Source of the DNA: Xanthobacter flavus | GTDB lineage: Bacteria > Pseudomonadota > Alphaproteobacteria > Rhizobiales > Xanthobacteraceae | Assembly (NCBI RefSeq): GCF_017875275.1 | Contig: NZ_JAGGML010000001.1 | Location: 4,113,001 to 4,177,000 of the forward strand | Direction: 5' to 3' | Length of the DNA stretch: 64,000 bases | Notes under the pieces: generated by a model | Database searches by the model: none | Seen by the model: the letters and a program-made list of their open reading frames with translations, nothing else | What the model was told of the DNA's origin: nothing | Part shown: positions 735-7,294 of the stretch, in pieces | Position numbering within the stretch: position 1 is the stretch's first letter | Layout: each line of letters begins with the position of its first letter | Position numbers and translations under genes: made by a program

Positions 735-1070
735 ATGTGCGAGGTCTGCGCGATCTTCGGCGCCGGCGAGCACTGGAGCGATTTCGCCCGGCAGCGCGAC
801 GCGCGTTTCCCGTTCGAGGACATCCTGCACTACCGGGCGGAACGCCGGCGGCGCATCGCCATGCTGAATGCGCTGGTCGGCCCGCTCGGCCTCGTCTGCG
901 AGGACTGGGACGGGGAGGCGCTGGCGCTCACCGACGCGCGCGGCCGCACCAAGATCGCGCCGACCCTCGGAGACGTCTGGCCCATCGCGGAAAGTCTCTC
1001 GGGTCGCGGCATCGACCCCTTGTCCGAGGATTTTATCGCGCCCGCGCGGGAGGCTCCGGCCCATGGATGA
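735..1070 (+). CDS. Small CxxC protein upstream of CobW GTPase, function unknown
   Basis: A 111-residue soluble protein starting MCEVC, so a CxxC pair sits at residues 2-5. There is no signal peptide or membrane segment, and the middle is rich in arginine and acidic residues. A clear ribosome-binding site (AAGGAG) lies 8 nt before the ATG. The stop codon overlaps the next gene's start by 8 bp (ATGGATGA), so the two are almost certainly translationally coupled. I do not recognise the family. The position next to a CobW metallochaperone and the N-terminal thiol pair suggest a metal-handling partner, which is inference only. Confidence 0.75.
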   Translation: MCEVCAIFGAGEHWSDFARQRDARFPFEDILHYRAERRRRIAMLNALVGPLGLVCEDWDGEALALTDARGRTKIAPTLGDVWPIAESLSGRGIDPLSEDFIAPAREAPAHG

Positions 1071-2100
1071 ACGCCTGCCCCTGATCGTCGTGACCGGCTT
1101 TCTCGGCTCGGGCAAGACGACCCTCATTCGCCGCTTCATCGAAACGTCGGAGGGCGGCGATTCCGGGCTCATGGTCAACGAGTTCGGCGAGGCGGGCGTC
1201 GATCATCGCCTGCTGGTGCATGCCAGCGAGGCGATGGAACTGATCGACGGCGGGTGCCTCTGCTGCGCCCGCCGCTCCGATGTCGCCAAGGCGATGCACG
1301 ATCTGGTGCGCATGGCGAAGGACAGTTCCCGGGCCGGCGGCGGCTTGCGCCGAGCCATCCTGGAAACGTCGGGCCTTGCCGACCCGGCTCCCGTCATCGC
1401 GACCCTCGCCCGTGACCCCTGGCTGAAGGCGCATGTGCGCCTCGCCTCCGTCGTGGCGGTGGTGGACGCGGTGGCGGGCCTGCGCAATCTTGAAAACCGG
1501 CCGGAGGCGCGCCGGCAGGTGGCCATCGCCGATACGGTGGTGATCACCAAGGGCGACATGCGCGCCGCCGAGCCGACGGCCCACCTCGCCGCGGCGGTGC
1601 GCGCCATCTCTCCCGACGCGCGCATCCTCGACATTCAGGACGAGACGTTCCGGCTGGGCGACGTGCTGGCCGGGCGAGAAAGCCTGCATGCCCCGCCGTC
1701 GCCATTCCTGGCCGATGCGCCGGAGCATGATTCCGAGGTCTCCTCCTTCACGCTCCCCATCGAGGGGGCGCTGGACTGGCCGGCCTTTACGCTCTGGCTG
1801 TCGGCGCTGCTCCACGCCCATGGCGACCGCATCCTGCGGGTGAAGGGGCTGCTGCGGACAACATCCTCTAACAGGCCGCTGGCCATCCACGGCGTGCAGC
1901 ATGTGATGCACCCGCCGACGCACCTCGGCGCGGACGACGGCGGGCCGTCCTTCCTCGTCTTCATCGCCCGCGGCATCCGCAAGGCGGAGATCGAGCGCAG
2001 CCTCGCCCGCGCGCTCGATCTGTGTCAGGCGGGCTCCCACATGTCGGACCCTGCGCGGCAGGCGGTGGCTTTCCGCGAAGGCATCGCCCCGGCGGCGTGA
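1063..2100 (+). CDS. CobW/COG0523-family G3E GTPase (putative metallochaperone), copy 1
   Basis: A 345-residue G3E P-loop GTPase of the CobW/COG0523 family, members of which deliver or insert metal ions (Zn, Co, Fe) into client proteins. The Walker A loop is GFLGSGKT at residues 12-19, followed by NEFGE (39-43) and the family metal motif CLCC at 65-68. TKGD occupies the base-recognition position usually written NKxD. The C-terminal CobW_C domain follows (from about residue 220). The ATG at 1063 overlaps the preceding stop codon; a longer in-frame reading upstream is a shadow of the small CxxC gene. A second CobW gene lies at 5241-6269 on the opposite strand, flanking an ABC importer and an amidohydrolase. 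Confidence 0.93.
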   Translation: MDERLPLIVVTGFLGSGKTTLIRRFIETSEGGDSGLMVNEFGEAGVDHRLLVHASEAMELIDGGCLCCARRSDVAKAMHDLVRMAKDSSRAGGGLRRAILETSGLADPAPVIATLARDPWLKAHVRLASVVAVVDAVAGLRNLENRPEARRQVAIADTVVITKGDMRAAEPTAHLAAAVRAISPDARILDIQDETFRLGDVLAGRESLHAPPSPFLADAPEHDSEVSSFTLPIEGALDWPAFTLWLSALLHAHGDRILRVKGLLRTTSSNRPLAIHGVQHVMHPPTHLGADDGGPSFLVFIARGIRKAEIERSLARALDLCQAGSHMSDPARQAVAFREGIAPAA

Positions 2101-2112
2101 GGAGTGCCGGGG

Positions 2113-2160
2113 CCAGTCCTCGGGCGCGTCAGTTCTCAGGCGCGCAAGTCCTCAGGCGCG
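2113..2160. repeat. Three tandem 16-bp imperfect repeats at the convergent gene ends
   Basis: Three consecutive 16-bp units (2113-2128, 2129-2144, 2145-2160) share the core AGTyCTCrGGCGCG. They fill the gap between cobW (+) and the ABC ATPase gene (-). The third unit contains the TGA stop of the ATPase gene, so repeat-copy changes could alter that C-terminus only if a unit is lost into the coding end. Confidence 0.85.
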
Positions 2161-5179: not shown

Positions 5180-5240
5180 ACTACTCTCCTGAGGACGAGG
5201 CCCGCGCGGGCCGATTTGAAAGTGAAGGGCCGGCGGCGCG

Positions 5241-6269
5241 TCAGGATGCGAGATCGAGCGCCACGGGGCGGGTGCGGATCACGTCCAGCACCTCGGTCAC
5301 GTAGGCCTGCGACAGGCCGCGGGTGATGAAGACGATGCGCGAGCCCGCCATGCCCTCCGGCCAGGCGGCAAGCTCGACCGGCGGCGAGAACAGCCGCTGA
5401 ACGGCCTGCACCACCACCGGCCTGGGGCGGCCGGCGATGGCGAGGATGCCCTTCACCCGCAGCAGATCGTCGCCATGGGCGATGACCAGCGCATCGAGCC
5501 ACGCCGAAACGTGCTCCCAGTGCAGGGGCTCCTCGAATGCGAGGCAGAAGGAGCCGATGTCCTCCCGGTGGGTCACCGGGTCCGCCGCCTCGAAGGCTTC
5601 CGCGCGCAGCCAGGCGCGCACTTCGCTGGGGCGGGTGTTGGGATCGGCGGGGTCGATGCCGTCGAGCAATGTCGGCTGGGCAAGATGCGTGAGCGAGGAG
5701 CGATGCAGCCGCGCGCCGGGGGACAGGCCGGCGATGCGGGCTTCCAGCGGGGCGAGGTCGCTGCCCGCCAGATCGGCCTTGGTGAGCACCACCTCGTCGG
5801 CGACGCCCACCTGCTTGCGGGCCTCAGCGTGGCGGTCGAGCGTGCCCATGCCCTGCACCGCGTCCACCGCCGTCACCACCCGCCCGAGGCGATAGGCGCG
5901 GGCCACGGGGAAGGTGATCAGTGCCTGGATGACCGGGCCGGGATCGGCCATGCCGGTGGTCTCGATGATGACCCGCGCGAACGCCTTCACCTCGCCGCGG
6001 GCGCGCTTCTCGGTGAGGTCGCGGAGCGTCTCCACGAGGTCGCCCTTCACGGTGCAGCACAGGCAGCCGGTGGACAGCTCGATGGTGTTGTCCGAACTCG
6101 CGGCGATGAGGGCATGGTCGATGCCGATCTCGCCGAACTCGTTGACGATCACGGCCGCGTCGCTCAGCGCGGGATCCCGCAGCCACCCGTTGAGCAGGGT
6201 GGTCTTGCCCGATCCGAGGAAGCCGGTGAGCAGCGTCACCGGCGTCCGCATGTCGCGAAAATGGGCCAT
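5241..6269 (-). CDS. CobW/COG0523-family G3E GTPase, copy 2
   Basis: A 342-residue CobW-family GTPase with Walker A GFLGSGKT at residues 16-23, NEFGE at 43-47 and the metal motif CLCC at 69-72, followed by a CobW_C domain. TKAD takes the NKxD position. It is clearly related to the copy at 1063-2100 but not a recent duplicate. I chose the ATG at 6269 because AGGGGAG lies 9 nt upstream; an alternative GTG at 6293 would overlap the stop of the binding-protein gene as GTGA. It lies between the binding protein and the amidohydrolase, which makes the amidohydrolase its most likely metal client. Confidence 0.93.
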   Translation of the reverse strand: MAHFRDMRTPVTLLTGFLGSGKTTLLNGWLRDPALSDAAVIVNEFGEIGIDHALIAASSDNTIELSTGCLCCTVKGDLVETLRDLTEKRARGEVKAFARVIIETTGMADPGPVIQALITFPVARAYRLGRVVTAVDAVQGMGTLDRHAEARKQVGVADEVVLTKADLAGSDLAPLEARIAGLSPGARLHRSSLTHLAQPTLLDGIDPADPNTRPSEVRAWLRAEAFEAADPVTHREDIGSFCLAFEEPLHWEHVSAWLDALVIAHGDDLLRVKGILAIAGRPRPVVVQAVQRLFSPPVELAAWPEGMAGSRIVFITRGLSQAYVTEVLDVIRTRPVALDLAS

Positions 6270-6289
6270 GGTGCCGGCTCCCCTCGGGC

Positions 6290-7294
6290 TCACTTGCCGG
6301 CGATGTAGCTCGGGTCGTAATAGCGCTTGAGGTCGAAGGCCTGGGTCTGGGGATCGCCCCCCACGGCCGTGTCGATCTTGTAGAGGTTTTCGAGGCCGGC
6401 CGCCTTCACGGCGAGATCGGCGGGGATCGCCTTCTGCTCCTTCACGATGAAGGCGTAGGAATCCTCCACCACGTCGCGCGGCGTCTTGGTGTAGGCGGCG
6501 AGCACGTCGATGGCCGCATCCTTGTTGGCCGGGTCGTCGATGAAGGCGGCCGCCTCTTTCAGCGCCTGCGTCAGCGCGATCGCCGCAGGGCGGGTGGCGG
6601 GGGCTTCGCCCCAGGACTTGTTCAGCACGAGGGGCGTCTGCACATAGGGCTCACGATAGACATCGAGCAGCACGGCGCCGTCGCGCCCCGCGAGGGTGTC
6701 GAAGGGGGCGATGAGGAGCGCGCCCGCGACCTGCCCGTTGCCCATGGCGATGATGCGGTCGCGCGAGTTGGCAATGGACACCATCTGCGCGCCGGCCGGG
6801 TCCACGCCCGCCTGCTTCAGCTGAAATTTCAGGAGGTTGGCCGTGCCGCCCTTGACCGCTCCGGCGGTCAGCGGCTTGCCGGCGAGATCCTTCACCGAGG
6901 CCGTGCCCTTGGCGCCGTAGAGGCGCAGGATGGTCTTGTCGAGCACCGCGCCGGCGATGATGACCGGGGCGCCCTTGTCGATGGCGCGCACCGCGAGGTC
7001 GCCCAGCGAGATGCCCGCGTCCGCGCTGCCCGATGCGACCGCCTGCAGCAGCGCCGGGCTGTCCGACGCGCGCAGTTCGCGCACGGTGATGTTGCGCTTG
7101 TCGTAGAAGCCCTTTTCCACGGCGATGGCGTGCAGCCAGAGCAGGGCGCTGGGGGCGAGGACCGCGAGCTTCACCTCGGTCTTCGGAGCGCCCTGCGCAG
7201 CGGCGGGCGAGAAGGGCAGGGCGGTTGCGCAGCTCAGGGCGAAGGTCGCCGCCAGAGCGGCTGCGAGGCGGCGTGTCACGACGCGCGTCATCAT
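6290..7294 (-). CDS. ABC substrate-binding protein, SsuA/TauA/NMT1 type
   Basis: A 334-residue periplasmic binding protein that captures the substrate for the importer at 2152-3776. An N-terminal signal peptide (RRLAAALAATFALSCATALPF then AAAQG, cleavage near residue 32) precedes the NMT1-like domain. Two adjacent ATG codons (7294 and 7291) follow GGAGAG; longer upstream frames lack a ribosome-binding site. It is the first gene of the five-gene minus-strand operon and is divergent from an IclR regulator, with two palindromes in the intergenic region. Confidence 0.9.
   Translation of the reverse strand: MMTRVVTRRLAAALAATFALSCATALPFSPAAAQGAPKTEVKLAVLAPSALLWLHAIAVEKGFYDKRNITVRELRASDSPALLQAVASGSADAGISLGDLAVRAIDKGAPVIIAGAVLDKTILRLYGAKGTASVKDLAGKPLTAGAVKGGTANLLKFQLKQAGVDPAGAQMVSIANSRDRIIAMGNGQVAGALLIAPFDTLAGRDGAVLLDVYREPYVQTPLVLNKSWGEAPATRPAAIALTQALKEAAAFIDDPANKDAAIDVLAAYTKTPRDVVEDSYAFIVKEQKAIPADLAVKAAGLENLYKIDTAVGGDPQTQAFDLKRYYDPSYIAGK

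Follow-up and report, generated by a model that had tools for sequence, protein, structure and literature searches.

Which enzymes do two neighbouring GTPases of the COG0523 family serve in Xanthobacter flavus, and do they serve them together? The question is raised by the left end of a 64,000-nucleotide stretch of its genome (the window, bases 4113001-4177000 of the 5.35-Mb single contig), where the initial annotation had noticed two such GTPases with a CLCC motif, an SsuABC-type importer, a dihydroorotase-like enzyme carrying an HSH motif and a candidate lysine, and a small CxxC protein. Family scans and motif positions confirm all these components, but not their union in one system: we find that they very probably form two separate units, modules A and B, whose parts, defined from family scans and open frames, are as follows.

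1..713 (start left of the window), plus strand: module A, GntR/FCD-type regulator (PF07729 74.7 bits and PF00392 31.3 bits on 51-713)
735..1070, plus strand: module A, small CxxC protein of 111 amino acids, with M-C-x2-C, H13-W14 and D94-P95-L96 (without Pfam or NCBIfam match; 19-row alignment)
1063..2100, plus strand: module A, CobWa, a COG0523 GTPase (PF02492 133 bits, PF07683 68.2 bits; P-loop, GCLCC)
2152..2973, minus strand: module B, SsuB/TauB-like ABC ATPase (PF00005 111.8 bits)
2970..3776, minus strand: module B, SsuC/TauC-like permease (PF00528 101.3 bits)
3773..5179, minus strand: module B, AmiH, a cyclic amidohydrolase (PF01979 84.9 bits; best solved relative 1gkr; HSH, Lys146, His188, His247, Asp320)
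5241..6293, minus strand: module B, CobWb, a COG0523 GTPase (PF02492 152 bits, PF07683 78.3 bits; nearest solved chain YjiA, 1nij, 155.8 bits)
6290..~7294 (start uncertain, frame open to 7387), minus strand: module B, SsuA/NMT1-like substrate-binding protein (PF09084 56.3 bits, PF13379 46.9 bits)
7399..8205, plus strand: module B, divergent IclR-type regulator (PF01614 60.9 bits, PF09339 36.4 bits), at the same place in two other genomes (loci L084 and L085)

The two modules converge at 2100/2152. The start of CobWa overlaps the CxxC gene by 8 bases, three junctions among the minus-strand genes of module B are 4-base overlaps, and the frame of the GntR/FCD regulator continues open leftwards beyond the window edge (into the adjoining stretch L055).

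The genes that belong with CxxC-CobWa lie on that left side, so that they were not visible to the initial annotation. The 20 kb left of the window hold LivH, LivM, LivG, a LivF-like ATPase, AmiH2, a Liv-type binding protein and an Amidohydro_2 enzyme (the Liv names being assigned by eye and similarity). AmiH2 (L055 14113-15504), about 3.5 kb from the window, is a second cyclic-amide hydrolase, 33-35% identical to AmiH. Of the 13 related CxxC loci from the genome collection, 12 carry AmiH2, the remaining one being a 3.4-kb contig (L026). Conversely, a search for AmiH2 at E 1e-90 detected it in 2 of 199 genomes of the order (three genes, one a second copy) and in two plasmid records, all four of which also contain the CxxC gene. 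The set AmiH2-CxxC-CobW is constant across the AmiH2 loci, while the transporters differ. Further left (L055 118-8117), genes resembling HyuA/HyuB (hydantoinase/oxoprolinase), a class III aminotransferase and a phosphotransferase were recognised by eye; HyuA/HyuB-like genes also lie near AmiH2 in L032, and near other CxxC-CobW pairs, those with the CE4 enzyme described below, in L052, L153, L157 and L159-L162.

As to module B, two genomes from other families (L084 and L085) share its order IclR, SsuA, CobWb, AmiH, SsuC, SsuB, their AmiH being 79-81% identical, so that this grouping is more than chance; the CxxC gene was not found in the 20 kb fetched around these two AmiH loci. At E 1e-60, AmiH has matches in 29 of 397 genomes of the order, above 39% identity only in its own genome and two others; orthologues are thus counted in 3 of 397 genomes, own genome included, in a search scoring at most four candidates per genome, for which absence is no proof. 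No orthologue appeared among plasmids (1037 records, all below 60% identity; 36.6% for the best among the matches listed).

By domains and motifs both GTPases belong to COG0523: the P-loop GFLGSGKT and the GCLCC motif stand at residues 12 and 64 of CobWa and at 24 and 76 of CobWb, and in both proteins the cobW nucleotide-binding and CobW_C domains score above the Pfam cut-offs. Neither reaches the cut-off for CobW proper of cobalamin synthesis (TIGR02475, 108.7 and 130.3 bits versus 332.1). A tree of 54 COG0523 proteins unites the CxxC-paired GTPases (43 rows) in one group with a support of 82/90, below the 95/80 mark, and places CobWb, its Xanthobacter aminoxidans copy and the two orthologues in a separate clade (100/97). 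This tree was built without L089, L091, L186 and five of the eleven own-genome stretches; in it L022_A2_12454 is actually CobWb and L152 is wrongly labelled CE4, and its per-label change counts are unreliable.

That both GTPases, the CxxC protein, SsuABC and AmiH nevertheless constitute a single device for metal delivery and degradation, as the initial annotation proposed, would be in line with their adjoining, converging position, found here and in X. aminoxidans, the nearest named relative (CxxC 97% identical). We consider it very improbable. Among the DNA examined for the 13 loci, the AmiH orthologue and the rest of module B stand beside CxxC only in X. aminoxidans (L022). Xanthobacter sp. 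YC-JY1, X. tagetidis and Aquabacter (L023-L025) have module A without module B in the DNA examined, with the reservation that L024 ends inside AmiH2 and that L026 and L030 are too short on the right side to judge module B. Module B in turn goes without CxxC in the 20 kb fetched for L084 and L085, and the two GTPases fall in different clades. CobWb goes with AmiH-SsuABC, and CxxC-CobWa with AmiH2.

Are the hydrolases plausible metal clients? In AmiH, His59 and His61 (HSH), Lys146, His188, His247 and Asp320 align with those positions of cyclic amidohydrolases of solved structure, e.g. 1gkr, which we take to be the metal ligands. AmiH thus has the complete di-metal set HxH, Lys, His, His, Asp of hydantoinases, dihydroorotases and allantoinases. 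Its best solved relative is the L-hydantoinase 1gkr (232 bits), which is also that of AmiH2 (209.8 bits). AmiH2 keeps HxH, Lys and the two His, but a Glu replaces the Asp ligand of 1gkr and AmiH in 14 of the 14 rows reaching this position (15 rows in total, one cut before it, two from the same locus), and its set is therefore not the canonical one. Neither enzyme reaches an NCBIfam equivalog cut-off in its best 25 models (of 61 for AmiH, of 64 for AmiH2), and AmiH receives no named allantoinase, dihydroorotase or hydantoinase assignment. Module B differs from the 1gkr case in having no carbamoylase gene, so that hydantoins, dihydropyrimidines and dihydroorotate-like rings are equally admissible candidate substrates of AmiH.

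The CxxC-CobW pair extends far beyond AmiH2. We scored 65 CxxC loci, made up of the 13 related loci, 12 obtained by the order search, 7 plasmid loci chosen for diversity from 60 records, and 33 contributed by two profile searches, from which the own genome was excluded and in which G034 counts as a single entry. They are not independent, L031 and L043 having identical CxxC (apparently one Afifella locus), L022 being very near our species and the rhizobial loci being alike. A CobW gene lies within 1.5 kb of CxxC in 63 of the 65. Within 8 kb, AmiH2 (at least 55% identity) is found in 14 loci, an enzyme of the CE4 family (at least 50%) in 47, and neither in 4, namely L026 (the short contig), L053, L152 and L163, which has only a 30%-identical CE4 relative. 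In the least biased set, that of the 33 profile loci, CobW and the CE4 enzyme are each present in 31. These neighbourhoods recur across many families. The reverse search with the CE4 enzyme (E 1e-60) gave 18 matches in 199 genomes of the order: CxxC and CobW adjoin 12 of the 14 with at least 60% identity and none of the four below 45%.

A third COG0523-amidohydrolase pair exists in the same genome, at about 4.02 Mb (L098 7731-10209), where a COG0523 gene overlaps an Amidohydro_3 gene; such linkage is therefore not confined to modules A and B, although many amidohydrolases do without. A Liv-type binding protein gene precedes this pair and a DAO-type FAD oxidoreductase gene follows it. Elsewhere in the genome (L097 7110-9943), a COG0523 gene comes after a D-Ala-D-Ala carboxypeptidase look-alike recognised by eye, D-Ala-D-Ala carboxypeptidase being the other neighbour mentioned in PMC3084791.

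The CxxC protein of the window has Cys at positions 2, 5 and 55 and His at 13. M1, C2, C5, H13, W14, R40, G70, W82 and D94-P95-L96 are invariant in all 19 diverse members aligned. Its novelty, already suspected, holds: no Pfam or NCBIfam family, HypA/UreE-type carrier models included, fits any of six members scanned (the window member at E 0.001, five others at E 0.1). Searched with the alignment profile, 10 genomes out of 398 from the phylum and 23 out of 385 from the class gave matches; the own genome is counted in both, and as these searches score 11 or 12 candidates per genome, absence is no proof. An AlphaFold2 model from 14 rows has a pLDDT of 71.8, below 50 for residues 1-25; Foldseek against solved folds returned no match at E 0.001, and we claim no fold. 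Two solved chains proposed as relatives by sequence were discarded, their E of 0.87 being at chance level.

Several lines thus converge: CobW beside CxxC in 63 of 65 loci, AmiH2 or the CE4 enzyme near it in 61, the reverse result for CE4, the constant company of AmiH2 and CxxC, the order of module B as conserved in two other families, the invariant Cys2, Cys5 and His13, the P-loop, GCLCC and both domains in each GTPase, and the additional pair of L098. They lead us to favour, with somewhat better than even confidence, the reading that CxxC and CobW together are dedicated to inserting metal into ring-opening hydrolases, which belong to two unrelated folds, and that CobWb is a related aid to AmiH. 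A functional link is suggested mainly by the chemistry that both partner enzymes share, both being probably ring-opening amide or imide hydrolases. The idea of a dedicated metal GTPase for a ring hydrolase, put forward in the initial annotation, is thus sustained by the conserved neighbourhoods, but for two distinct arrangements.

From gene content, conserved neighbourhoods, ligand residues and GTPase family, which are observed, we infer that CxxC binds metal, that GTP drives its transfer, that the hydrolases are the clients, that the substrates are cyclic amides, imides or ureides, and how the sets are regulated. In module A, under GntR control, the CxxC protein would hold a metal ion via Cys2, Cys5 and His13 and, with CobWa, load metal into AmiH2, CxxC being likely the donor to, or the acceptor from, the GTPase. 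In module B, under IclR control, CobWb would load AmiH without a CxxC partner, and the substrate would enter via SsuABC. In general an ABC importer would bring the substrate, the regulator would induce the set, the GTPase would metallate the new hydrolase and the ring would open; in some loci MFS carriers adjoin the genes. In HypA-HypB and UreE-UreG, a small metal-binding carrier goes with a G3E GTPase. The CxxC-CobW pair may work in the same way, its clients being an amidohydrolase barrel and a CE4 enzyme; the layout is alike if CxxC has the role proposed, but the clients are other ones and the scans revealed no sequence relation of CxxC to a Pfam or NCBIfam family.

Several observations weigh against the dedicated-pair reading. 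CobWb lacks a CxxC partner. The pairing also has exceptions: neither hydrolase accompanies the CxxC gene in L053 and L152, in L165 and L170 the CxxC gene stands by a CE4 gene while the DNA examined contains no CobW, and two of the 14 close CE4 enzymes have no CxxC and CobW within about 1.5 kb. Besides, no CobW lies within about 1.5 kb in 31 further amidohydrolase loci, some of which include SsuABC-like genes, so that a helper is not obligatory for such enzymes. This control comprised 36 loci, of which five were set aside as AmiH or AmiH2 (L035, L036, L056, L057, L059); the match of L041 spans only 62 residues, L042 matched nothing, flanks of 1.5 kb miss even CobWa beside AmiH2 (L036), and the own-genome amidohydrolase at 4019791, beside the CobW gene of L098, is not among the 31. 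HpPgdA of Helicobacter, a CE4 relative, carried an ion in its active site when crystallised after production in E. coli (PMC3084791), so that CE4 relatives can acquire metal without CxxC-CobW. Lastly, the CxxC model has low confidence exactly at the Cys residues and matches no solved fold. As side observations, the L165 and L170 genomes each carry another CxxC copy, and the distant CxxC-CobW pair of L053 (9127-11229) lies beside a FAS1_DH-region protein, without ring hydrolase.

Two other explanations account for part of these data. CxxC might, in place of carrying metal, assist the hydrolase or the GTPase in a structural or regulatory role, with Cys2, Cys5 and His13 serving a structural zinc or a redox function: the conserved core reaches far past the Cys/His part (R40, G70, W82, D94-P95-L96), which suits a binding surface, and L165 and L170, where CxxC remains by the CE4 gene without CobW, fit as well; yet in 63 of the 65 loci scored it is paired with a GTPase whose family is one of metal insertion, and we regard this role as rather unlikely. 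More unlikely still, in our opinion, is that the GTPases are general low-zinc response proteins whose adjacency to hydrolases is incidental. Such COG0523 proteins are common, our genome has 14 PF02492 matches (not all COG0523), and PMC2770081 links Zur-controlled COG0523 genes with zinc-enzyme paralogues, including one of PyrC (dihydroorotase). That case resembles ours by the genomic linkage of COG0523 with a dihydroorotase-type protein, but that paralogue is said to lack the zinc ligands and is connected with COG0523 through zinc starvation, whereas AmiH has all ligands and the adjoining regulators are IclR and GntR. The scores for the zinc chaperone ZigA are far too low (NF038288, 68.7 and 106 bits versus a cut-off of 600), and the recurrence of the neighbourhoods across many families speaks against incidental adjacency. 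A Zur-like 15-base palindrome, which may not fit the genus, gave 0 matches with at most three mismatches versus 0 expected by chance and bears little weight.

Compared with described systems, the dedicated-pair reading is close to the activator Nha3/P47K of Fe-type nitrile hydratase, which belongs to COG0523 subgroup 2 (PMC2770081): there also a COG0523 GTPase gene is tied to one metal-dependent enzyme acting on a nitrogen compound. Here, however, the clients would be CE4 enzymes and hydrolases of cyclic amides, and in one lineage the GTPase has the small CxxC protein as a partner; no nitrile hydratase gene is present among the nine proteins of 51-8205, the only part of the genome scanned for them. 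Among the titles and abstract beginnings of the literature matches listed, none reports a COG0523 gene that serves a cyclic amidohydrolase or that goes with a CE4 enzyme and a small partner, and the initial statement that no described system has this content stands to that extent; the supplements of PMC2770081 and PMC3084791 were not covered, and the additional files of the former detail ten COG0523 subfamilies. That a COG0523 GTPase can be bound to a single client is already known from Nha3; as far as these matches show, the clients and the small partner are new.

The relation to Helicobacter has been partly seen before (PMC3084791, PMC2770081, PMC3866246). The CxxC-linked CE4 enzyme matches HP0310/HpPgdA (3qbu) over its full length with 527.7 bits, and HP0312 is a COG0523 protein (PMC2770081); the neighbourhoods of HP0310 and HP0312 were already compared in PMC3084791. 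HP0309 (an N-carbamoyl-D-amino acid amidohydrolase), HP0311 and HP0312 stand in one table of PMC3866246, which we take, from the text of its section, to list genes that H. cetorum lacks; the text of that paper does not mention HP0310. HP0310 is named a peptidoglycan deacetylase. According to PMC3084791, HpPgdA is structurally closest to the PuuE allantoinase, genes of its relatives cluster with polyamine importers, and the protein was inactive on the compounds assayed, allantoin included. The same paper recalls earlier evidence of peptidoglycan deacetylation, and PMC3688963 reports acetyl-esterase and deacetylase activity; both favour the older name.

The company of the CE4 genes suggests ring chemistry. 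In ten loci (L045, L048, L050, L087, L142-L144, L147-L149) two SDR-type genes accompany CE4 and an amidase, which is the same company as that of the fungal relative HxnM, proposed from the metabolites of deletion strains to be a cyclic imide hydrolase whose step falls between those of a dehydrogenase and an amidase (PMC9304392). In annotated records, an asparaginase (L088) or an amidase (L091) is a further companion. On a plasmid of Rhizobium tumorigenes (L092 8104-18273), CE4-CxxC-CobW is followed by genes of a urea-type ABC importer and urea carboxylase, which hints at a ureide substrate there.

As to the surroundings, the best NCBIfam models for the SsuB-like ATPase are those of SaoA and of taurine and nitrate importer ATPases, all below their cut-offs. 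The next cluster (window 8278-12921) contains by eye look-alikes of a dihydrodipicolinate-synthase-type lyase, an SDR, a GntR regulator, a Gfo/Idh oxidoreductase and a sugar-type ABC ATPase. Family scans found neither RNA families nor tRNAs in the window.

Few COG0523 GTPases have a known client, and the gene order described here suggests hydrolase families of two unrelated folds as such clients. This linkage opens a direct test of the loading of metal by COG0523 proteins into particular enzymes, and it bears on the real activity of HP0310-like enzymes. We could imagine, by analogy with HypA-HypB and only tentatively, since we hold it for possible but not probable, that CxxC-CobW is a two-protein metal-insertion device specialised for hydrolases that open amide or imide rings, which was carried over from the CE4 enzyme to an unrelated amidohydrolase of similar chemistry, and that HP0310-HP0312 contain the same device. 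If so, HP0310 would be first of all a cyclic imide or ureide hydrolase.

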